This document shows, one piece after another, positions 24,626 through 50,533 of a stretch of DNA of 64,000 nt (positions within the stretch are counted from its first letter, which is position 1; each line of letters starts with the position of its first letter). The DNA lies in the NCBI GenBank assembly GCA_902599495.1, contig CACKFY010000004.1:1-64000 (forward strand). Reading direction: 5' to 3'. The translations under genes and the position numbers were made by a program. The notes beneath the pieces are model-generated. The model saw only the letters and a program-made list of their open reading frames with translations, did not search any database and was not told the DNA's origin. This DNA is from an uncultured Pelagibacteraceae bacterium (GTDB lineage Bacteria > Pseudomonadota > Alphaproteobacteria > Pelagibacterales > Pelagibacteraceae).

Positions 24626-25621
24626 ATGGAAACAACAAATATATTAAATCAAATTGGTAATACACCATTAATCAAATTAAAACAAGTTTCTGAATTAACA
24701 GATTGTAATATTTATGGTAAGGCCGAATATTTTAATCCAGGTGAGTCCGTAAAAGATCGTGCTGCACTCTATATTGTAAAAGATGCTTTTAAAAAGAAAA
24801 AAATTGAAAAAGGTGGAATTATAGTGGAAGGAACCGCAGGAAATACTGGGATAGGTCTAGCAGTCGTTTGTAGAGAATATAACTTAGGTTTAAAAATTGT
24901 AATACCTAAAACACAGTCTATAGAAAAAAAAGAAATATTAAAAAAACTAGGGGCTGAATTAATTGAAGTCGATGCTGTACCTTACTCAAATCCCAATAAT
25001 TATATCAAACAATCAAAAATGATTGCGGAAGAATTATCCAGAAAACATAATTTTGGAGTTGTTTGGGGTAATCAGTTTGACAATATAATTAATACTGAAG
25101 CACATATTGAAACTACAGCAAATGAGATATGGTCTCAAACGGCTGGTAAAGTAGATGGTTTTACTTGTGCTGTAGGGACAGGAGGAACTTTGGCGGGTGT
25201 TTCAATTGGTTTAAAGAGTAAAAATAAAAATATTAAAATTGCACTTTCTGATCCTATGGGTTCATCTTTGTATTCATATATAAAAAATAATAAATTAGAA
25301 AGTAAGGGAAATTCAATTACTGAAGGAATTGGCACTGCAAGAATTACTAAAAATTTTGAAAAGGCTATTATCGATGAAGCTTTTCAAACAGATGACACTG
25401 TTGCTTTAAAAATTATTTATGATTTAATAGAACAACAAAATATTATTCTTGGTGGCTCATCTGGTATTAACATTGCTGGAGCAGTAAAACTTGCAAAAAA
25501 ACTTGGAAAAGGAAAAACAATTATTACTATACTGTGTGATGATGGTAGACGCTATGCAAGTAAAATTTTTAACAAAGATTTTTTAAAAAGTAAAAATTTA
25601 CCTATACCAAAGTGGTTATAA
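24626..25621 (+). CDS. cysK: Cysteine synthase (PLP-dependent O-acetylserine sulfhydrylase)
   Basis: [48 protein letters not shown]. Confidence 0.9.
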
Positions 25622-26347
25622 AATTTGGCTTAAAAATAACTTAGTTCTATCAGATTTAGGATTTTCGAAAAATTCTTTCGTTTTAGCTTTTTCAACAATT
25701 TTACCTTCATCCATAAAAATCATATTGTCAGCAACTTCTTTTGCGAATCCCATTTCGTGTGTTACAACAATCATGGTCATCCCTGCTTTAGCAAGATCAA
25801 CCATTGCATCTAAAACTTCTTTGATCATTTCTGGATCAAGTGCTGAAGTGGGTTCATCAAAAAGCATAATCTTTGGCTCCATACATAACGCTCGTGCTAA
25901 TGCTGATCTTTGTTGTTGACCGCCGGATAACTGTCCTGGAAATTTTTTAGCTTGATCAGCAATTTGAACTCTTTCTAAGTTTTTCATTGCTAATGCTTCA
26001 GCATCTTTTTTTGGCATTTTTTTAACCCATATAGGCGCCAAGGTACAATTATCTAAGATTGATAAGTGAGGAAATAAATTAAATTGCTGAAACACCATTC
26101 CTACTTCAGCTCGAATTTTTTCTAAGTCTTTAGTATTTTCGGAAATTTCTTTACCATCAACTATTATTTGACCATCTTGATGCTCCTCTAATCTGTTGAT
26201 GCATCGAATTAAAGTAGACTTTCCTGAACCAGAGGGTCCACAAATTACTATTTTCTCTTGTTGATTTACTTCAAGGTTTATATCTTTTAAAGCTTGAAAC
26301 TTATCAAACCATTTATTTACATTTTTTAATTCAATTATTTTACTCAT
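25616..26347 (-). CDS. aapP: General L-amino acid ABC transporter ATP-binding protein
   Basis: [45 protein letters not shown]; linked to aapQM. Confidence 0.93.
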
Positions 26348-27604
26348 TTATCTTTCTGTTTTTAGTTTTTTTTCTAAATTTTGACTATATCTACTCATAA
26401 CATAACATATTACCCAAAATACTAAACCAGCAAATACATAGCCTTCCATGGCCATTCCAAGCCATTTTGGATTAGTTTTTGCTAAATTTACCATTCCAGC
26501 AAGCTCTAAAAGTCCAACAACAAAAATTAGTGGCGTATCTTTTACCAATGCCAAAAATGTATTGGCTATTCCTGGAATTACTAATTTAAGAGCTTGAGGT
26601 AAAATTATTAAAAAATGCATTCTCCAATAACCCATGCCTAGCGATTTAGCTGCCTCGTATTGACCTTTAGGTAAAGCCTGTAACCCTCCTCTGACTACTT
26701 CAGCCATATAAGCTGCCTCGAATAAAGTTATAGCAATTAAAACTCTTATTAATTTATCTACATAAGTTCCGTCTGGTAAAAACATTGGAAACATTACTGC
26801 TGACATGAATAATACTGTAATCAAAGGAACACCTCTCCATAGCTCAATAAATCCTATGGAGGTGTATCTTATAGCAGGTAGCTTGGACCTTCTCCCTAAT
26901 GCTAAAATAGTCCCTATAGGAAAACAAAGTATTAAAGCAAATGCTGAAACTATGAATGTTAATGAAAGTCCACCCCAAGCACCAGTTTCAACATATTTTA
27001 GACCAAAATCTCCACCAGATATAAGTTTAAGACCAATTATTGGATATACGAATAATAAGAAGATAATAATATATTTTTTATATCTTTGAGGAACGAAAAA
27101 TGAAGCTCCGACTAGTAAAAATAGTGTTAAAAAAGCAGTATTTATCCGCCATTGTTCTGTATCAGGATAAAGTCCATAAACAAATCTATTTAACCAAACT
27201 TTGATAAATACCCAGCATGCACCACCACTAGTGCAATCTTCTTTTGTATTACCTGCAAAATTAGCATCAAATACAAACCAATTTAATAAAGGCGGGATAT
27301 ATTTTATAAGAGCAAATATTACAAGAAGCGTTAATAGTGCGTTAAAATTTGATGAGTTAAAATTAGTATTAACTTTATCAAGTAGTTTATTTCCACTAAA
27401 TTCAATTCTTATTAAATAAAGGCCAAATAATCCAAACAATAATGGAGTAAGATAACTTATTTTATCGGGTAAGAATGCAGTTATGTTTGTGCTAAAAAAA
27501 GAACTGAAAATAATATCTATAAAGCCTATTAAAATAAGGGTGCCTCCAATAGCAATGAAAGAATTCAGATTTTTTTTGTCAGATTTAAGTATTGATAAAT
27601 TCAT
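26348..27604 (-). CDS. aapM: General L-amino acid ABC transporter permease
   Basis: EAAYMAEVVRGGLQALPKGQYEAAKSLGMGYWRMHFLIILPQALKLVIPG. Confidence 0.92.
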   Translation of the reverse strand: MNLSILKSDKKNLNSFIAIGGTLILIGFIDIIFSSFFSTNITAFLPDKISYLTPLLFGLFGLYLIRIEFSGNKLLDKVNTNFNSSNFNALLTLLVIFALIKYIPPLLNWFVFDANFAGNTKEDCTSGGACWVFIKVWLNRFVYGLYPDTEQWRINTAFLTLFLLVGASFFVPQRYKKYIIIFLLFVYPIIGLKLISGGDFGLKYVETGAWGGLSLTFIVSAFALILCFPIGTILALGRRSKLPAIRYTSIGFIELWRGVPLITVLFMSAVMFPMFLPDGTYVDKLIRVLIAITLFEAAYMAEVVRGGLQALPKGQYEAAKSLGMGYWRMHFLIILPQALKLVIPGIANTFLALVKDTPLIFVVGLLELAGMVNLAKTNPKWLGMAMEGYVFAGLVFWVICYVMSRYSQNLEKKLKTER

Positions 27605-28782
27605 TATTTTTCCTTTATAGCCATTTTTTTGTTATACCAATTCATAAATACTGAAATAGAGAGACTTAAAGATAAATATGTGAGCATTGTTATTGAAATA
27701 ATTTCGATCGCTCGGCCAGTTTGCATTAGGGCAGTTCCCGCAAATACTAAAACAATATCTGGATATGCAATAGCAGCAGCTAAGGATGAATTTTTTGTTA
27801 AATTTAAATATTGGTTAGTAGTAGGTGGAATTATAATTCTTAAAGCTTGTGGCATAACTACAAGTTTTAAGATTTGTCCTTTTGTTAAACCAATTGAAGC
27901 AGCGGCCTCTTTCTGTCCCTTGCTAACACCTAATATACCTGCTCTGACATTCTCAGCAATAAAAGTTGCGGTGTACATTGATAAAGCTAATGCTAACGAA
28001 ATTAATTCAGGGATAATACTTACCCCACCTCGATATACATAAACGGTCTTGGATAATTGAGTTAATACAGGAATTTCAAATGATAAACTTACTCCACCAA
28101 TTAAAAATGATAAAAGTGGCAAACCAATAATTAATAAAATTGATATATACAAAGTTGGAATTTGTTTTCCAAATTTATCTCTTTGCTTTTGCGCATATTT
28201 ACCTAAAAAGTAAATTAGAATAAATGAAAATACTATAGAGTATAAAAATATAGAAAAGTTAGTCCAAACAAATTTTGGAACATACCAACCTTTTACATTC
28301 AAAAAGCTAATATCGTAAAAATTGATAGAGTCTACAGTCAAAGGTAAGGCTCTTAAAGCGGCGAAGTACCAGAAAAAAATTTGAAGAATTAGAGGTATAT
28401 TTCTAAATATTTCCACATACCATTCTGCTGATTTAGCTACTAAATAATTTTGAGATAGTCTTGCTATACCAATTGTTACTCCTAAAATTGTAGCAAAGAA
28501 AATTCCAATTACAGAAACTAAAATTGTGTTTAAAAGACCAACCAAAAATGCCCTGGCATACGTATGTGATCCATCATAGTCTATGAGTGAAAAAGTTATA
28601 TCAAAGGAAGACTCTTGAGATAAAAAACCAAATCCAAATGAAATTCCTCTGTTGCCCATATTGCTTTGGGCATTAATAGTAAAATAAATTACAACTAAAA
28701 TTAAAAATAAAACTGTTAAAATTTGCGGAATTAAATCTTTGTTTTTATTGCTTAAATTTAATTTAAGATTTTTAAAATTCAT
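27604..28782 (-). CDS. aapQ: General L-amino acid ABC transporter permease
   Basis: ENVRAGILGVSKGQKEAAASIGLTKGQILKLVVMPQALRIIIPP. Confidence 0.92.
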   Translation of the reverse strand: MNFKNLKLNLSNKNKDLIPQILTVLFLILVVIYFTINAQSNMGNRGISFGFGFLSQESSFDITFSLIDYDGSHTYARAFLVGLLNTILVSVIGIFFATILGVTIGIARLSQNYLVAKSAEWYVEIFRNIPLILQIFFWYFAALRALPLTVDSINFYDISFLNVKGWYVPKFVWTNFSIFLYSIVFSFILIYFLGKYAQKQRDKFGKQIPTLYISILLIIGLPLLSFLIGGVSLSFEIPVLTQLSKTVYVYRGGVSIIPELISLALALSMYTATFIAENVRAGILGVSKGQKEAAASIGLTKGQILKLVVMPQALRIIIPPTTNQYLNLTKNSSLAAAIAYPDIVLVFAGTALMQTGRAIEIISITMLTYLSLSLSISVFMNWYNKKMAIKEK

Positions 28783-28793
28783 TTTATGCAGAA

Positions 28794-28828
28794 TAAAAAA
28801 AAGGGCCAGATAAATCCAGCCCTTTTTA
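28794..28828 (-). terminator. Intrinsic terminator/attenuator between aapJ and aapQ
   Basis: Minus strand AAAAAGGGCTGG-ATTTAT-CTGGCCCTTTTTTTT: GC stem (with G-U pairs) followed by a T-tract. Confidence 0.8.
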
Positions 28829-28841
28829 ATTTAATTAGCAA

Positions 28842-29888
28842 TTATCTTGCTGGTGGTACATAAAGAATTCCACCTTTTGTCCATAACTCATTTGGACCTC
28901 TATTAGGTAAAATTCCAGTGTCCGCTATGTGTTTTTTATAGCTTTCACCGTAGTTTCCAACTTGCTCGATAATTCTTAAGCTCCAATCATTGTCTAAACC
29001 GAAAGCTGCACCTAATTCACCCTCAGCACCAACTAATCTTTTAATAGCTGGATTATCAGAGTCTTTTAAGCTTGAAGCGTTTGATGAATTAACACCGTAT
29101 TCTTCTGCTTCGATCATAGTGTTTAGAGACCATCTAACAATATCTTCCCACACAGAGTCACCTTGTCTTACAACAGGTCCTAATGGTTCTTTTGAAATTG
29201 TTTCTGGTAATACTTTATGCTCATCTGGGTTACTCAACTTAGTTCTTTGAGCAGCTAATCCAGATTTATCTGTAGTATAAGTATCACATCTTCCAGCATC
29301 ATAAGCTTGAACAACTTCGTCTGCTTTTTCAAACGCAATTGGTTCATACTTGATGTTTTTAGAATTGAAGAAGTCTCTCATGTTAAGCTCAGTAGTTGTA
29401 CCTGTGTTTGTACAAGCAGAAATACCGTCTCTGAAATCATTTACAGAATTGATCCCAGATGCTTTTCTAACCATGAAACCTTGACCATCATAAAAATTTA
29501 CACCAACAAATGTTAATCCAATGTCAGCGTCTCTTGATAATGTCCAAGTTGTGTTACGTGCAAGTACGTCGATTTCACCTGAAGTTAATGCAGTAAATCT
29601 CTCTTTTGCACTTAATGGAGTATATTTAACTTTGTCAGCATCGCCTAATACAGCAGCTGCAACAGCTCTACATACGTCCACATCTATGCCGGTCCAGTTT
29701 CCTGCTTCGTCAGCATTTGAAAATCCTGGAAGTCCTTGTGAAACTCCACATTTTACAAAACCAGCTTTCTTAGTGTTGTCTAAAGTCTTAGATTTTTTAG
29801 AACCAGCACCGCCTCCACCTTGGCCACAAGCCACAAGTAATAGAGATGCAAATCCAACCAAAATCCAAGTTTTAATTGATTTAATCAT
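28842..29888 (-). CDS. aapJ: General L-amino acid ABC transporter substrate-binding protein, predicted lipoprotein
   Basis: GFVKCGVSQGLPGFSNADEAGNWTGIDVDVCRAVAAAVLGDADKVKY; N-terminal LLLVAC lipobox. Confidence 0.92.
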   Translation of the reverse strand: MIKSIKTWILVGFASLLLVACGQGGGGAGSKKSKTLDNTKKAGFVKCGVSQGLPGFSNADEAGNWTGIDVDVCRAVAAAVLGDADKVKYTPLSAKERFTALTSGEIDVLARNTTWTLSRDADIGLTFVGVNFYDGQGFMVRKASGINSVNDFRDGISACTNTGTTTELNMRDFFNSKNIKYEPIAFEKADEVVQAYDAGRCDTYTTDKSGLAAQRTKLSNPDEHKVLPETISKEPLGPVVRQGDSVWEDIVRWSLNTMIEAEEYGVNSSNASSLKDSDNPAIKRLVGAEGELGAAFGLDNDWSLRIIEQVGNYGESYKKHIADTGILPNRGPNELWTKGGILYVPPAR

Positions 29889-30078: not shown

Positions 30079-30519
30079 ATGCCAACTTACTTTGTAAATT
30101 CATCAAATATTAAACTTTCAAAAATAGTAAAAGAAAAATTAGCAAAACAAATAACAAAAATTCATAACAAAACTACTGGGGCAAATAAATATTTTGCTCA
30201 AGTAATTTTTAATGACACAAAAAAAGGAAGCCATTTCATGGGCGGAAAAATAGTCACTAAATCTGAAATTTTTATATATGGTCACATTAGATCAGGTAGA
30301 ACCTCGAAAGTTAAAAATAAATTAATCAAAGGTTTAAGAGAAATAATTAAGGAAAATACAAAATTAGAAAAAGATAATATTTGGGTATATTTGTTGGATT
30401 TAAAGCCTAATCAAATGATAGAGTACGGCGAAATACTACCAAAATCTGGTGGTGAAAAAAAATGGTTTAAAAATTTACCAACAAAGTTAAAGATAAGATT
30501 AAATAAGATTGATAACTAA
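30079..30519 (+). CDS. Tautomerase superfamily protein, cis-3-chloroacrylic acid dehalogenase (cis-CaaD)-like
   Basis: Met then Pro1; P1, H28, R70, R73, Y103, E114 all at cis-CaaD numbering; WVYLLDLKPNQMIEYGEILP C-terminal motif. Confidence 0.85.
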   Translation: MPTYFVNSSNIKLSKIVKEKLAKQITKIHNKTTGANKYFAQVIFNDTKKGSHFMGGKIVTKSEIFIYGHIRSGRTSKVKNKLIKGLREIIKENTKLEKDNIWVYLLDLKPNQMIEYGEILPKSGGEKKWFKNLPTKLKIRLNKIDN

Positions 30520-31136
30520 TTTTTGGAAAACAAAAGCGAATTTATCTTATTTCCTTTTTTTTCTGCTTTCAGATAGAACTTAGTTTTAATTGTAACTATT
30601 TTATTAATTTTTTTTACCTTAATATTTGAAAATTTTTTTATAATAGTCTTAACATTCATGAAATAATCTAAATTGTCTGTGCTAAAAAAAACTTTTCCTT
30701 TTTTTTTTAAAATCGCAAAGATTGTCTTTAAAAACTCTTCATTTATAATACGTCTTTTCTTATGTCTTTTTTTGGGCCATGGGTCAGGAAATAAAACATA
30801 TATTATATCAAAACGAAGTTTGTTAAATTTATTGATAAATTTTTGAAACACATAGGGATAAAGATAAATGTTTTGTATATTGTTATTAATACAATAATCT
30901 GAAACATTTACCATTCCATTCTTAAAAGGATCTACACCAATTATATTTTTTTTTATATTTTTTTTGGATAAATAAATAAGGTTTTCACCCATTCCAATAC
31001 CAATTTCTAGAATCAATTTTTTCTTTGAATTTAATCTGTTTATATTCTTTGTTTTTAAATATTTTTTAAAGCTACTTTCTTTAATTATGGAAATCTTTCT
31101 TGATTTAACTCTTCCAAAATAAAGTTTTTTTTTCAT
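30516..31136 (-). CDS. trmB: tRNA (guanine-N7-)-methyltransferase
   Basis: LILEIGIGMGENLIYLSKKN, FPDPWPKKRHKKRRI. Confidence 0.94.
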   Translation of the reverse strand: MKKKLYFGRVKSRKISIIKESSFKKYLKTKNINRLNSKKKLILEIGIGMGENLIYLSKKNIKKNIIGVDPFKNGMVNVSDYCINNNIQNIYLYPYVFQKFINKFNKLRFDIIYVLFPDPWPKKRHKKRRIINEEFLKTIFAILKKKGKVFFSTDNLDYFMNVKTIIKKFSNIKVKKINKIVTIKTKFYLKAEKKGNKINSLLFSKN

Positions 31137-31219: not shown

Positions 31220-32629
31220 CTAAGAGACTTCTCTAGTATTAGCATTAAATGACTGGGTAAATGGAATTTTAACTACAACAGCATCTACTGCCTTACTTGA
31301 GTATTTCTTTGGTAAGTGCACCTTATATTTTTTACCTAAATTACCTATCGGAAAACCTGTTGCACTTAAATGTCCTTCATAAGGAACATATCCCATAGCT
31401 ATATTTTTTCCCTTCTCTGGATGGTACCACGGAGAAGTAATATAACCAACTGGTTTACCTCCATCGCTATTAGAGATTAGATAAAAATCATTAGCATAAT
31501 CGTCTATAGGTTTGCCTCCAAGTTCTAAACCAACCAATTGTAACTTATAGGGTTTATCACCGTTTCTTAATTGATCTCTCATTTTTTCTAAAGCTTCTTT
31601 ACCAATATAATCTGTTTTCTTTTCCCATACACCTTTTCCAGATAAAGAAACTTGATAACCTAAATTACATTGAAATGGATTAGTTTCATGATCTAAATCT
31701 TGTCCCCATGAAAGAATTCCAGCTTGAATTCGTCTGTGATGAGCTGGCGCAATAACCATAAGTTTATGTTTTTTTCCTGCTTTTAAGACTGCATTCCACA
31801 TGTCTTCAGCGTATAAAGTAGCATTTCTTAAATATATTTCATAACCTGCTTCTCCAGAAAAACCTGATTGTGATATAACGCAACTACGACCACCTATATT
31901 TGCTTCTGCTAAACCATAGAAAGGCATATTATCGAAATCAACTTGATCACCTGCTAAATCTTTCATTAGAGCTTTCGATTTTGGACCTTGAATTTGAACT
32001 GGACATGCATCTATTTCATCTATTTCAACATTAAATCTTTTATCTGCGTTTACTCCCTGTAAATAAAGACCTATGTCTGAGTCTGATAAGCTAAACCAGA
32101 ATTCATCATCAGCCACTCTTAACAAAACAGGATCATTTAAAACCCCACCTTTGTAATTACATAAAATTACATAACGACCTCTCATTGTTGAGATTTTTGT
32201 AGCATCTCTGGTGATTACATAATCAACAAATTTTTCTGCATCTGGTCCTTTTACTCTTATTTGTCTTTCAACAGCAACGTTCCACATTGTTACATGGTTT
32301 TTTATTGCTGCATACTCAACCATTGCTCCACCTTTTTCAGGTCTTACATAACCCCTAGGATGATAAATTCTATTGTATACAGTAGCTCTCCAGCAACCTG
32401 CTTTCATCGACAAGTGCCAATAAGGAGATTTTCTTACTCTTGTAGAGATTAACATCTCAACTTTAGTTGGTCCGCTTTGTCTGAGATTGTATGGAACTTG
32501 TCTATCTGACTGATCGACTGATGTTTCATGTCGGACTTTGTCATAATTAACTTTTTCTGGTTTTAAAGATATTAACTTAAATTTTTTCTTTGGTTTATTT
32601 TTTTTTACTTTTTTATTTTTCTTTGGCAT
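31220..32629 (-). CDS. DmdA/GcvT-family tetrahydrofolate-dependent demethylase-like protein
   Basis: ISTRVRKSPYW, MWNVAVERQIRVKGPDAEKFVDYVITRDATKI, GVLNDPVLLRVADDEFWFSLSDSDIGLY, GILSWGQDLDHETNPFQ. Lys-rich N-terminus may be partly non-coding. Confidence 0.8.
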   Translation of the reverse strand: MPKKNKKVKKNKPKKKFKLISLKPEKVNYDKVRHETSVDQSDRQVPYNLRQSGPTKVEMLISTRVRKSPYWHLSMKAGCWRATVYNRIYHPRGYVRPEKGGAMVEYAAIKNHVTMWNVAVERQIRVKGPDAEKFVDYVITRDATKISTMRGRYVILCNYKGGVLNDPVLLRVADDEFWFSLSDSDIGLYLQGVNADKRFNVEIDEIDACPVQIQGPKSKALMKDLAGDQVDFDNMPFYGLAEANIGGRSCVISQSGFSGEAGYEIYLRNATLYAEDMWNAVLKAGKKHKLMVIAPAHHRRIQAGILSWGQDLDHETNPFQCNLGYQVSLSGKGVWEKKTDYIGKEALEKMRDQLRNGDKPYKLQLVGLELGGKPIDDYANDFYLISNSDGGKPVGYITSPWYHPEKGKNIAMGYVPYEGHLSATGFPIGNLGKKYKVHLPKKYSSKAVDAVVVKIPFTQSFNANTREVS

Positions 32630-33350
32630 AATTATTAGCTACCAACCATTTGTTTGTTTCCTTGAGACCGCCAAAAGTATAAATATGAAAGTGTTTTGTA
32701 ACTTTCTTTAAGCTATTTATCAATTCGCTAGGGTCTCTAGGCTTCAATAAATCTAAAGCTTTACTCGTATTAGATTTAAGAAAATTTATAGAATTTTTTG
32801 CCCCAACAATACTCGCAAACTTTAATAAGCTGCTTATTTTTAAGGGACCAGTAATTCCAACATGAACTGGAAGAGTTTGTTTTGAAATAAAATTAGCTAT
32901 TACTATTGGATCCAAGAGCCACTGCGTTACTATATAATCTGCGAGAGGAGTTTTTTCTTTCATAGCTTTTTCTAATTCTGAGTCGGATATATCAGGGGAA
33001 CCCTCAGGGTGTCCAGCAATTCCTATCTTCATCCCTTGAAATAATCCCGTCTCAAGTAATTGCAACGAGCAGTGGTATTCCCCTACAGGTTCTCTCCCTC
33101 CACCAATTACTAAAGCTTGATTTACGCCTGAATCTTTACACATTTTTACATAGTCCTTTAACTCATTTAAATCCTTTACAGATCTCGCAGGGAAATGTGG
33201 TATTGGATTGTACCCAGAACGAACTAGCTCATCAGCTTTACGAGCTACTTCTCGATAGTCGGTTCCCGGAAGCATCGTTACATAAACATCTTTTAATCCA
33301 GGTAAGACTGATAAGTCAGTTTTTGATGTAATTTCTAATGAAAATTTCAT
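32613..33350 (-). CDS. Short methylenetetrahydrofolate reductase (MetF)-like protein
   Basis: 245 aa; LSVLPGLKDVYVTMLPGTDYREVARKADELVRSGYNPIPHFPARSVKD, GIAGHPEGSPD, LPVHVGITGP MTHFR-family motifs. Confidence 0.78.
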   Translation of the reverse strand: MKFSLEITSKTDLSVLPGLKDVYVTMLPGTDYREVARKADELVRSGYNPIPHFPARSVKDLNELKDYVKMCKDSGVNQALVIGGGREPVGEYHCSLQLLETGLFQGMKIGIAGHPEGSPDISDSELEKAMKEKTPLADYIVTQWLLDPIVIANFISKQTLPVHVGITGPLKISSLLKFASIVGAKNSINFLKSNTSKALDLLKPRDPSELINSLKKVTKHFHIYTFGGLKETNKWLVANNYAKEK

Positions 33351-46190: not shown

Positions 46191-47411
46191 TTAGCTAAAA
46201 TTTTTGTTATCTTCATTAATAGCTTCTTTAAGTCTTATCAAATAATCAGGAATAGCACTTTTAACTCTGCTCCATGTAGGTATGAACGGCGTATCCATAG
46301 GACTTTTTAAAAAAGAATCACCGGCCTTCATTATATTTGAAGCAAATAATTCGACTGTTTTTTCCTCAGTATGAGAATCAAATTTAAAACCATTCATTTC
46401 AGCATCGCTTCTATAGATGTCAATTAAATCTAATGCATATCGATAATATGTAGCTTTTAATGATCTAAAAGTTTCAGGGCTAAAAGTATTTCCTTGTGTT
46501 GCTAGTTTTCTAATTAAAGTTTTAATAATATCTAAAGACATTCTTGATAGTCCTTTGTTTTCATTATTTGCTGATAAGTCCTGATGTTTATGATCATATT
46601 TGTCAGCTAAATCAACTTGGCAAATATTTTGGGGAGAAAAATTTCTTTGCATTTCTGACAGAATACCAACTTCAATACCCCAGTCTGATGATATTCTAAG
46701 CTCTGGTAAAACATTTCTTCTAAATGAAAACTCGCCTGCAAGAGGGTATTTGAATGATTTCATAAATTCTAAATAATCACTTTTTCCAATAGTTTTTTCT
46801 AAAGCAGTTAACAAAGGAAACACAAGTAATCTTGCAACTCGACCATTCATTTTCCCATTAGCTATTCTTGGGTAATATCCCTTACAAAACTCAAAGTTAA
46901 AAAAAGGATTTACAACAGGATAAAATAACTTTGCTAGCATTCTTCTATCATAAGTTTTAATATCACAATCGTGAAGAGCAACAGATCTAGCTTCATCTCT
47001 TGCAATACACATGCCAAGACAATACCAAACATTTCTACCTTTTCCTGTCTCGCTCGGTGCTAAACCTTTCTCTTTAAGTTCTTCATGCAATTTTTTTAAT
47101 TTAGGTCCATCATTCCATAAGATTGTAAAAGGTGTGTTTAAACCTTTAAAAAATTTCCAAGCCTTGATAGCCTCTGATTTTGAAGCCTTATCTAAACCAA
47201 TAATGATATGGTTAAGATATTTTGTTTCTCCAATTTGTTTTACAATATTAGGTAATGCATCTCCTTTAAGTTCAGAATATAGACTTGGTAAAATTAATTC
47301 CATTTTTCTTTCTTTTGAAAATTTTAATAATTCTTTTTCTATATCAGCTGTAGATTTAGTCCCAAAATCGTGGAGATTTGAAATTATTCCATTTTGAGAA
47401 AAGTCACCCAT
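46191..47411 (-). CDS. Glucosyl-3-phosphoglycerate synthase-like glycosyltransferase (GT81/GpgS type)
   Basis: GKGRNVWYCLGMCIARDEARSVALHDCDIKTYDRRMLAKLFYPV; FEFCKGYYPRIANGKMNGRVARLLVFPL. Track start 47471 overlaps the upstream gene; Met at 47411 more plausible. Confidence 0.82.
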   Translation of the reverse strand: MGDFSQNGIISNLHDFGTKSTADIEKELLKFSKERKMELILPSLYSELKGDALPNIVKQIGETKYLNHIIIGLDKASKSEAIKAWKFFKGLNTPFTILWNDGPKLKKLHEELKEKGLAPSETGKGRNVWYCLGMCIARDEARSVALHDCDIKTYDRRMLAKLFYPVVNPFFNFEFCKGYYPRIANGKMNGRVARLLVFPLLTALEKTIGKSDYLEFMKSFKYPLAGEFSFRRNVLPELRISSDWGIEVGILSEMQRNFSPQNICQVDLADKYDHKHQDLSANNENKGLSRMSLDIIKTLIRKLATQGNTFSPETFRSLKATYYRYALDLIDIYRSDAEMNGFKFDSHTEEKTVELFASNIMKAGDSFLKSPMDTPFIPTWSRVKSAIPDYLIRLKEAINEDNKNFS

Positions 47412-47428
47412 AACAAAACTTATTCCTT

Positions 47429-48229
47429 TTATTTTATTTTTTCTAGTGCCAATTTGACAACCTCTACCCACCCTTCTGGTGCAGTTTGTTTTGATATTAT
47501 CAAATTTTTAATTTGTAGATCTTTATTAATAAACTTATCATTTTTTACCAAACAAGGTACATCTGAATTTTTTAGCATTTCTAGGTCATTATGATTATCG
47601 CCTATTGCTATAGTTTTTGGTTTAGATTTATATTTATTTTCAAGCATATAAATTATTTTCTTCATAGCATCAGCTTTATTAACTCTATCACCTAAATTTA
47701 AAACCCTTCCACCATCTTTGAAATCTAAACCGATTTCTAATAAAATATTTTTTAAACTTAATTTTTCCTTGTTATTTCCCTCAAATTTTATCGGTATTGT
47801 ACATGTTCTCTTAAATACCTGCTTAAGCTTATTTTCTGGTAAACCAAATATTTGAATTTGTTCTTGCGTTGTTAGATTTGAAATAACTCTACATTTGGAT
47901 TTTAAATCTTGATTTATATTTTTATCAAAAATATTTTGAATTTCATAAACATTTTTAGCTAGAATAATTTTGTTTGGGAATTCGCTACTTAAAAAATTTA
48001 GGTTATGAATAATTGATCCATTTTCACTGATAAATGGAAATTTAAAGTTAGCTTCATTATTAAATTCTTTTATTTCATCCTCGGTTTTACTAGAATTCGG
48101 TATAATTATAATATTTTTGTTTTTTAACTCTTTTAGGAAAATTTTAATACTGTCGAACTTAAAAGTATCTCTATTTAAAAGTGTTCCATCTAAATCAGTA
48201 AATATTAAAATGGAAGAATTTGAATACAT
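47429..48229 (-). CDS. HAD hydrolase, mannosyl/glucosyl-3-phosphoglycerate phosphatase family
   Basis: IFTDLDGTLLNRDTF, PNSSKTEDEI, ENGSIIHN, KTIAIGDNHNDLEMLK. Confidence 0.82.
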   Translation of the reverse strand: MYSNSSILIFTDLDGTLLNRDTFKFDSIKIFLKELKNKNIIIIPNSSKTEDEIKEFNNEANFKFPFISENGSIIHNLNFLSSEFPNKIILAKNVYEIQNIFDKNINQDLKSKCRVISNLTTQEQIQIFGLPENKLKQVFKRTCTIPIKFEGNNKEKLSLKNILLEIGLDFKDGGRVLNLGDRVNKADAMKKIIYMLENKYKSKPKTIAIGDNHNDLEMLKNSDVPCLVKNDKFINKDLQIKNLIISKQTAPEGWVEVVKLALEKIK

Positions 48230-48257: not shown

Positions 48258-49700
48258 TTATACTTCTATAACTAAAGTATCTTTTGAACCACCGCCTTGT
48301 GAACTATTAACTATAGTGCTTCCTTTTCGAAGAGCTACTCTAGTAAGGCCACCAGTTGTAACCCATGAAGTTTTACCACTAAGAACGAACGGTCTTAAAT
48401 CAAGATGTCTTGGTTCAATTGAGTTTTCTGAAATTGTAGGAGTTGTTGACAAAACTTCAAGTGGTTGGGCAATGAAACCTTTTGGATCTTTATTAATCTT
48501 ATTTATAAAATCGTTTTTTTCTTTTGTTGAAGCTTTGGGTCCTATCATAATACCATTTCCCCCAGATCCATTAGTTGGTTTTACTACTAGTTCTGAAATA
48601 TTCTCTAAAACATGCTCTCTTTCTATTTTGTTTCTACATAAAAAAGTTTCAACTTGATTAATTTTTGGCTCCTCATTTAAATAAAATTTTATCATTTTAC
48701 CAACATATGAATAAATAGCTTTATCGTCCGCAATTCCTGTTCCAGGTGCGTTGACTATTCCTACGTTTCCTTTAATCCAAGATTTGAATAGACCGGCAAC
48801 ACCTAAAAGTGACTTCTTATAAAAAGTTTTTGGATCTAGAAAATTGTCATCTATTCTTCTATAAATACAATCTACCTTTAACGGACCTTTAACCGTTTTC
48901 ATGTAAACATAATCTTTTTCAACGAATAAATCTTTACCTTCAACTAAAGCTATACCCATTTGATCAGCTAAAAATTCATGTTCAAAATAAGCAGAGTTAT
49001 ATATACCTGGTGTAAGTAAAACCATATGAGGATTTTTAGTTTTTTTTGGTACGCATTCTTGCATACAATTATAAAGTTTATTTGGATATTGATGAATTGA
49101 AGATACCTTGTATCTTGTAAATAATTCTGGAAAAACATCTCTCATCACCATACGATTTTCAAGCATGTAAGATACACCTGATGGAACTCTTAGATTATCC
49201 TCTAAAACTAAAAACTCTCCGTCTTTATTTTTAATTAAGTCAACACCTGATATATTAGACCAAGCTTTGTGCTTAGGTGAAAATCCTTCACATTGTTTTA
49301 AATAATAAGGAGATTTGAAAACCAATTCCTCAGGAATTAATTTTTCCTTAAAGATTTTTTTTTCATTATACACATCATCTATAAAAAGATTGAGCGCTTT
49401 GACTCTTTGTAATAATCCCTTTGAAACTTTATTCCATTCTTTTTTTTCTATAATTCTTGGGATAATATCTAAAGGCCATTTTTTTTCGTCTTGTCTTTTA
49501 TCAGCAGAATAAACTTTAAAATTAATACCTCTCGCATTAATAGTGCTTTGACAGTTTTTCTCAATTTCATTTAATTTTTTTATTCCATATCTTTCTAGGA
49601 TGCCTGATATAGTTTTAGCTTGTTTTCTAAGCTTATTATCTAAGTTAAAATACTCATCATAAGACTTGCTAGAGTTATATTTTTTCCATATATCAACCAT
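48258..49700 (-). CDS. Circularly permuted ATP-grasp protein (DUF404/DUF407-like)
   Basis: INARGINFKVYSADKRQDEKKWPLDIIPRIIEKKEW, VLEDNLRVPSGVSYMLENR, VVKPTNGSGGNGIMIGP. Confidence 0.88.
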   Translation of the reverse strand: MVDIWKKYNSSKSYDEYFNLDNKLRKQAKTISGILERYGIKKLNEIEKNCQSTINARGINFKVYSADKRQDEKKWPLDIIPRIIEKKEWNKVSKGLLQRVKALNLFIDDVYNEKKIFKEKLIPEELVFKSPYYLKQCEGFSPKHKAWSNISGVDLIKNKDGEFLVLEDNLRVPSGVSYMLENRMVMRDVFPELFTRYKVSSIHQYPNKLYNCMQECVPKKTKNPHMVLLTPGIYNSAYFEHEFLADQMGIALVEGKDLFVEKDYVYMKTVKGPLKVDCIYRRIDDNFLDPKTFYKKSLLGVAGLFKSWIKGNVGIVNAPGTGIADDKAIYSYVGKMIKFYLNEEPKINQVETFLCRNKIEREHVLENISELVVKPTNGSGGNGIMIGPKASTKEKNDFINKINKDPKGFIAQPLEVLSTTPTISENSIEPRHLDLRPFVLSGKTSWVTTGGLTRVALRKGSTIVNSSQGGGSKDTLVIEV

Positions 49701-49807
49701 AAGTTAAAATTATTAATTATTTAGACAATTAATCAAATGCAAGAAATAGATGTCTGGCATGTGTAATTTGGGTTATCTATAATAGATTAAATATTTTAAC
49801 ATTAATT

Positions 49808-50533
49808 ATGACTTATTGTGTTGGTATAAAAACAAACGAAGGCGTAGTTTTGGCATCGGACTCAAGAACTAATGCTGGTTTAGATAACGTCAATATTTAC
49901 TCTAAGATGTTGACTTATGATGTAGGAGATAGAACAATAATTATAGTAACATCTGGAAATTTAGCTACCTCTCAAGCAGTTTTTAAATCATTAGAAAAAG
50001 ATATAAAAAATAAAGATAGCTCGTTAAGTTTAAATACTTGTAAAGATTTTGAACAAATTGCATCATATATTGGAAAACTCAATGTTAAACACTCGTCCCC
50101 TGATGGAGTAAATACAGACAGTTTAGTATTGGGATCTACTTTTATTATTGGAGGACAGATAAGAGGACAACAACTAGAACTGTACATGGTTTATCCTCAA
50201 GGCAACTATATTAGACCTGCTGATAGTAAGCCTTACTTAGTAATAGGTGAAGTTAAATACGGAAAACCAATTTTAGATAGAGTAATTACTCCAAGTGTTT
50301 CTATTGGAGATGCATCAAGGTGTGCATTAATTTCTATGGACTCAACTCTTAAAAGTGATCTTACAGTTGGACCGCCTATTGATATAGCTGTTTATAAAAA
50401 AGATGAAAAAAAAATGTGCTATTTAAAATGTCTGAATACTACTGATGACGATTATGCAAAAGTTTGCAATCAATGGTCAGATAAAGTTTTACAAGTTTTT
50501 GACACTTTCCCAAAATTTGATTGGGAAAAATAA
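49808..50533 (+). CDS. Proteasome-type protease of the Anbu family
   Basis: MTYCVGIKTNEGVVLASDSRTNAGLDNVNIYSKM with Thr after Met; Ntn-hydrolase fold pattern; neighbours an ATP-grasp gene. Confidence 0.87.
   Translation: MTYCVGIKTNEGVVLASDSRTNAGLDNVNIYSKMLTYDVGDRTIIIVTSGNLATSQAVFKSLEKDIKNKDSSLSLNTCKDFEQIASYIGKLNVKHSSPDGVNTDSLVLGSTFIIGGQIRGQQLELYMVYPQGNYIRPADSKPYLVIGEVKYGKPILDRVITPSVSIGDASRCALISMDSTLKSDLTVGPPIDIAVYKKDEKKMCYLKCLNTTDDDYAKVCNQWSDKVLQVFDTFPKFDWEK

Follow-up and report, generated by a model that had tools for sequence, protein, structure and literature searches.

The stretch of DNA analyzed here, 64,000 nucleotides long and referred to below as the window, comes from a genome of the Pelagibacteraceae (SAR11) and carries a gene for a tautomerase of the family that includes cis-3-chloroacrylic acid dehalogenase (cis-CaaD) and Cg10062. 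Our preferred reading, to which we assign a probability of roughly one half, is that the product is a Cg10062-like, cofactor-free enzyme that hydrates a small unsaturated carboxylate to give an aldehyde. The family itself is ordinary; the host and the setting are somewhat unexpected, and our literature search returned no paper that we recognized as treating the cis-CaaD family in SAR11. Cis-CaaD is a soil enzyme that degrades a man-made soil fumigant.

The tautomerase gene and its immediate neighbors

The positions of the gene, its six active-site codons, and the two flanking genes are collected in Table 1. The open reading frame described in the initial annotation is present, and its product carries the six residues that had been claimed for it, P1, H28, R70, R73, Y103, and E114, counted from the proline after the initiator methionine, together with the flanking motif, which reads IWVYLLDLKPNQMIEYGEILP. 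The six residues fall into register with those of Cg10062 and cis-CaaD without a gap over the relevant length.

TABLE 1 Coordinates of the tautomerase gene, its active-site codons, and the adjoining genes in the window
Feature	Position	Strand	Remarks
cis-CaaD/Cg10062-family tautomerase gene	30079..30519	+	ATG, 146 aa
Pro1 codon (predicted to be the catalytic proline at the N terminus after removal of Met)	30082..30084	+	Pro in 146/146 collected homologues
His28 codon	30163..30165	+	alignment register, invariant in 148 sequences
Arg70 codon (binds substrate in cis-CaaD, PMC11641302)	30289..30291	+	
Arg73 codon (binds substrate in cis-CaaD, PMC11641302)	30298..30300	+	
Tyr103 codon (contributed by the neighboring subunit in cis-CaaD, PMC5818174)	30388..30390	+	144/148 sequences
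Glu114 codon	30421..30423	+	alignment register, invariant in 148 sequences
aapJ-like periplasmic amino-acid binding protein	28842..29888	-	divergent neighbor; outside the tautomerase system
trmB, tRNA m7G46 methyltransferase	30516..31136	-	convergent neighbor; outside the tautomerase system

In the window the gene stands alone by position. On its 5' side lies the divergent aapJ-type gene, the head of a transporter set at 25616-29888, and at its 3' end 4 nt are shared with the convergent trmB; this order of the three genes is kept in other relatives of the window type. The trmB product scores 119.6 bits against PF02390 (cut-off 24) and 107.1 bits against TIGR00091 (cut-off 112.65). Promoter-like matches were no more frequent than in shuffled sequences. 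Comparison with seven close relatives gave dN/dS values of 0.08-0.15 (Nei-Gojobori), and so the gene is maintained under strong purifying selection.

Family membership and active-site residues

The window protein scores 40.8 bits against Pfam Tautomerase_3 (cut-off 25.7), and phmmer matched it to Cg10062 (3n4g) with an E value of 3.7e-27 and to cis-CaaD (2flt) with 3.9e-23. It has the features of the cis-CaaD subgroup: a proline directly after the initiator methionine, the six residues, and, in the model described below, a fold of the fused beta-alpha-beta type spanning some 145 aa. We surveyed the residues in 148 sequences, made up of 146 collected homologues plus Cg10062 and cis-CaaD; the two PDB chains compared with the cis-CaaD reference sequence differ from it at only one residue each (E114N and T34A). 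All six residues occur together in 144 of the 148. P1, H28, R70, R73, and E114 are invariant throughout, and Y103 is absent only from four remote alphaproteobacterial proteins. The six residues are thus a signature of the family and no peculiarity of the window protein, and being common to the family they are not by themselves a dehalogenase signature; we rejected them as evidence for dehalogenation.

Three other positions set cis-CaaD apart. Position 34 is Ala in every sequence except cis-CaaD, which has T34; position 69 is His in cis-CaaD alone, the family having I69; and position 38 is mostly Phe, with L38 in cis-CaaD. We used these positions as a sequence marker of cis-CaaD and not as proven determinants of its activity. 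The window protein has A34, F38, and I69, which is to say none of the cis-CaaD states, and since cis-CaaD is the odd one out at these sites, no dehalogenase activity follows for the window protein.

Predicted structure and comparison with known proteins

An AlphaFold2 monomer model of the window protein, built with 37 homologues, had a mean pLDDT of 94.1 and a pTM of 0.88. When Foldseek was run with it against the PDB, cis-CaaD and Cg10062 were returned first. The model superposes on Cg10062 (3n4g) with a TM score of 0.94 and 1.3 Å over 145 columns and on cis-CaaD (2flz) with a TM score of 0.90-0.91, the range for the two being 0.90-0.94 over 141-145 columns. The superposition of this monomer model, taken with the gap-free alignment, is compatible with the claim that the six residues would lie in one pocket, a geometry that is modeled from these two sources. 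According to their PDB titles, the Cg10062 and cis-CaaD structures listed capture intermediates in the hydration, or the hydration plus decarboxylation, of acetylenecarboxylic or cis-3-chloroacrylic acid; for Cg10062 the titles name hydration, and for variants of cis-CaaD they name decarboxylation as well.

The window protein is closer to Cg10062 than to cis-CaaD. Cg10062 of Corynebacterium glutamicum (3n4g, 7ms0) shares with it the six residues, length, fold, Ala34, and Ile69, at 35% identity; the SAR11 protein departs from it at T32-G33 (A32-H33 in Cg10062) and at F38 (L38 in Cg10062), and the two come from different organisms and gene settings. With cis-CaaD (2flz/2flt) it has in common the six residues, T32, G33, and the QM(I/V)EYG motif but differs in Ala34, Phe38, and Ile69 against Thr34, Leu38, and His69. 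N1, a cis-CaaD family member (7m58), matches over nearly its whole length (E value of 4e-23, model TM score of 0.93). The fold of Linker 1 (Ps01740; 5uif) is also alike (TM score of 0.95 by target length), but that protein has Ala in place of the Tyr103 of the SAR11 protein (PMC5818174). Malonate semialdehyde decarboxylase (MSAD) belongs to the same superfamily and likewise uses Pro1 as general acid, but its active site of D37, R73, and R75 differs from the SAR11 set (PMC11641302); no chain labeled MSAD was found among the sequence matches of the window protein.

These comparisons bear on whether the protein could be a genuine cis-3-haloacrylate dehalogenase, with an organohalide of natural or pollutant origin as its substrate. 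The six residues and the fold are as in cis-CaaD, and relatives may catalyze the reaction promiscuously. Against this, the nearer relative, Cg10062, is described as a homologue of unknown function and an inefficient cis-CaaD that lacks full isomer specificity (PMC5818174); among the 148 sequences T34 and H69 occur in cis-CaaD only; and no haloalkane or haloacid dehalogenase family was found among the neighbors examined. We consider such an activity very improbable. The natural organohalide substrate proposed in the initial annotation finds no support here: no halide-related family was among those identified near the gene, and T34, H69, and L38 are unshared.

Distribution and phylogeny

The nearest named relatives are in the uncultured Pelagibacteraceae single-cell genomes AG-404-C23 (93% identity) and AG-422-L15 (92%). 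A scan of 85,462 species genomes returned 417 relatives, and the best 80 of these include sequences from Caballeronia, Paraburkholderia, Bradyrhizobium, Holophagaceae, Propionibacteriaceae, and SAR11. No relative was found in one scan of viral contigs. In the SAR11 order the gene is accessory, present in 59 of 298 genomes, and its position changes. The SAR11 tautomerases cluster on the tree, with one Burkholderiaceae metagenome-assembled genome (MAG; locus L263) basal to them (SH-aLRT 99 for the group), and the group is nested among betaproteobacterial and other sequences. This suggests that the gene may have been transferred into the Pelagibacteraceae, although the alignment behind the tree is short for the number of sequences and many forks are unresolved.

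Genomic settings in SAR11

The gene was seen in four settings (G and L numbers below are our handles for genomes and loci). The order mtnP, tautomerase, mtnA, a variable segment, class II aldolase, SpeDE, and nitrilase belongs to a single clade of the window's genus. The window type lies between aapJ and trmB. In genus g6 the gene directly follows a gamma-carbonic anhydrase gene, and elsewhere it is convergent with an fbpABC-like iron transporter.

The patchy occurrence of the gene and its several insertion sites, some of them bordering variable polysaccharide regions, are what one might see for a generic detoxification or aldehyde-stress accessory gene with broad substrates, kept in variable SAR11 regions. 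Relatives in soil Burkholderiaceae and Bradyrhizobium lie near MarR, TetR, LysR, or AraC regulators, short-chain dehydrogenases, and MFS transporters, which also fits. However, strong purifying selection together with an invariant active site suggests a defined reaction, and we regard a generic role as rather unlikely.

The first setting raises a more specific alternative, in which the tautomerase serves methylthioadenosine (MTA) salvage as an accessory enzyme. On this view, DHAP and methylthioacetaldehyde would be formed from MTA by MtnP, MtnA, and a class II aldolase of the fuculose type; the substrate of the tautomerase would be one of the intermediates or methylthioacetaldehyde itself, whose enol it might, for example, hydrate with release of methanethiol. 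At L030 the tautomerase gene lies 4 nt from mtnP and overlaps mtnA by 1 nt; the aldolase, a SpeD-SpeE fusion, and the nitrilase follow in mtn-type loci, with apt divergent, and MtnP, MtnA, SpeD, and Apt score above curated cut-offs. In many g6 genomes, moreover, the tautomerase lies a few kilobases from ald2-speDE. However, the mtnP-tautomerase-mtnA arrangement is confined to one tree clade and counts as a single event, and in G009 and G028 the same mtnP/mtnA junction is occupied by surface-polysaccharide genes, which marks it as an insertion hotspot. Several genomes have mtnP-mtnA-ald2 without the tautomerase gene at that place, among them the window's own, where mtnP-mtnA-ald2-speDE lies on another contig (L103), and mtnA was undetected in 10 of the 59 carriers, some of which may be explained by incomplete assemblies. 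The MTA intermediates also have no carboxylate for Arg70 and Arg73, although a phosphate might substitute. Linkage in more than one independent lineage, with absence of the gene along with the pathway, would mark a component of MTA salvage, and this pattern was not seen. Because of the single event, the hotspot junction, and the carriers without detected mtnA, we downgraded a role in MTA salvage to an improbable one. A paper on SAR11 and methylthioadenosine deals with purine recycling and makes no mention of a tautomerase (PMC11698098).

Two side observations concern these loci. The junctions that hold polysaccharide genes (L106:2146-6155 and L110:7946-12602) contain GDP-mannose-dehydratase-like, C-methyltransferase, and LegC-like aminotransferase genes. 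In the SAR11 MTA-salvage operon at L030:5096-10547 and its equivalents (L024-L042), the fuculose-type class II aldolase replaces MtnB, which suggests MTA salvage in the style of the DHAP shunt.

Possible association with an ExaC-type acetaldehyde dehydrogenase

An ExaC-type dehydrogenase gene lies directly 3' of the tautomerase gene in five SAR11 genomes of genus g6 (G483, G544, G569, G638, and G677), and a DUF779 gene comes next after it at L160 and L161, the two loci read further downstream. Four of the five (G483, G569, G638, and G677) are on the tree, in one supported group, so the SAR11 adjacency counts once. Outside SAR11, a DUF779-ExaC pair on the Cupriavidus oxalaticus X32 plasmid is divergent from the tautomerase gene and 654 nt from it, and ExaC-type genes lie within 2.6 kb of the gene in C. 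lacunae and within 4.2 kb in Trinickia mobilis; for most homologues outside SAR11, no ExaC gene is nearby. The C. oxalaticus protein scores 953.8 bits against a curated cut-off of 900, and the SAR11 copies, at 853-890 bits, fall just under it. Most carriers have ExaC elsewhere in the genome, including the window's own (G000:C5:54315-55850), and it was undetected in six of the 59.

Across the 298 SAR11-order genomes, ExaC is present in 53/59 tautomerase carriers versus 73/239 non-carriers (odds ratio of 20), and among g6 genomes with mtnA in 26/30 versus 49/137 (Fisher p of 3e-7). ExaC was chosen after the adjacency had been seen, and the same test was run on two controls only, mtnA (49/59 versus 159/239, odds ratio of 2.5) and a GcvT-like gene (41/59 versus 201/239, odds ratio of about 0.4 by hand count). 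On an mtnA tree of 110 genomes, which gave only 9 supported independent pairs, ExaC changed the same way as the tautomerase in 2.2 pairs on average and the other way in 0.4, which is not significant. The co-occurrence may largely reflect shared ancestry, and given the pair result we hold the link to be suggestive; at that strength, ExaC is the best lead to a partner of the tautomerase. Short-chain dehydrogenase genes lie within about 5 kb of tautomerase relatives at 17 loci under 7 genus labels outside SAR11 (L192-L271), mostly in the same direction, and are a possible second partner.

Beyond ExaC-DUF779, L160 (4752-5534) and L161 (10973-11755) encode a 260-aa protein that resembles HpaH, MhpD, and DmpE (73, 69, and 63 bits). 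Its presence would fit a short route resembling meta-cleavage, in which a 2-oxo-enoate or a 2-hydroxydienoate would be tautomerized or isomerized by our protein, alongside the aldehyde dehydrogenase and an enzyme akin to 2-oxopent-4-enoate hydratase, and the 4-OT family of the tautomerase superfamily does isomerize unsaturated alpha-keto acids (PMC11641302). However, the 260-aa protein is far under every curated cut-off (350 or more) and matches PF01557 with an E value of only 0.0025, no hydratase-like open reading frame is listed beside the tautomerase at L158, and the active site is that of cis-CaaD (H28, Y103, and E114) rather than the 4-OT set. The probability of such a route is low in our judgment. 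The 260-aa protein also adjoins a GYD-domain protein at both loci.

Other genes in the window

Further downstream in the window, a gene for a GcvT-like protein (31220-32629, minus strand) overlaps an MTHFR-like gene (32613-33350, minus strand). The GcvT-like protein scores best against DMSP demethylase, at 239.9 bits versus a cut-off of 410, and is present in 242 of the 298 SAR11-order genomes; the MTHFR-like protein is under all cut-offs. The two are possibly an uncharacterized folate-dependent demethylase pair. We rejected a link between them and the tautomerase: the GcvT-like gene is no commoner in carriers, and where an MTHFR-like gene lies about 4-5 kb from the tautomerase gene, in two betaproteobacterial MAGs, unrelated genes intervene and no operon is shared.

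Farther along, adjoining genes at 46191-48229 resemble, by eye, those for glucosylglycerate synthase and the corresponding phosphatase, enzymes of compatible solute synthesis. At 48258-50533 an ATP-grasp-like protein is encoded beside a proteasome-type, Anbu-like peptidase, also by eye; this is a known pairing.

Proposed function and implications

Cg10062 acts on acetylenecarboxylate, with malonate semialdehyde and acetaldehyde as products. With acetaldehyde as a product, an ExaC neighbor would make sense, and the gene neighbors suggest hydration of a small natural unsaturated acid that feeds an aldehyde-oxidizing enzyme. In the family mechanism, Pro1 is the general acid, R70 and R73 bind the substrate, and H28, Y103, and E114 serve specificity and catalysis (PMC5818174, PMC11641302). 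For the window protein we infer a similar course. The initiator methionine would be removed and Pro1 would act as general acid; Arg70 and Arg73, with His28, would bind a small acid, either alpha,beta-unsaturated or acetylenic, by its carboxylate; and Glu114, with Tyr103 from the neighboring subunit of a presumed homotrimer, would activate a water molecule that attacks C3. The product would be a beta-oxo acid of the malonate semialdehyde type, or acetaldehyde once CO2 is lost, and the acetaldehyde may then be oxidized by the ExaC-type dehydrogenase encoded elsewhere in the window's genome. Hydration of a natural unsaturated acid, the part of the earlier substrate proposal that has some support, would fit both the catalytic residues and the relationship to enzymes whose structures contain intermediates of acetylenecarboxylate hydration. 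A fair annotation is "cis-CaaD-subgroup hydratase, Cg10062-like," with no dehalogenase name.

A bolder extension, which we put forward tentatively and think rather unlikely, is that tautomerase, ExaC, and DUF779 form a natural pathway from a marine unsaturated C3 acid through acetaldehyde to acetate, the candidate acids being propiolate and cis-3-substituted acrylates, for instance aminoacrylate or methylthioacrylate. If true, this pathway would supply a physiological role for the cis-CaaD family and would explain the pool from which a fumigant-degrading dehalogenase could have arisen. The window gene is a selected accessory gene in SAR11, a dominant group of ocean bacteria, with an acetaldehyde dehydrogenase as a possible partner, and it offers a shortlist of substrates and strains for the search for the natural role of the cis-CaaD/Cg10062 family.
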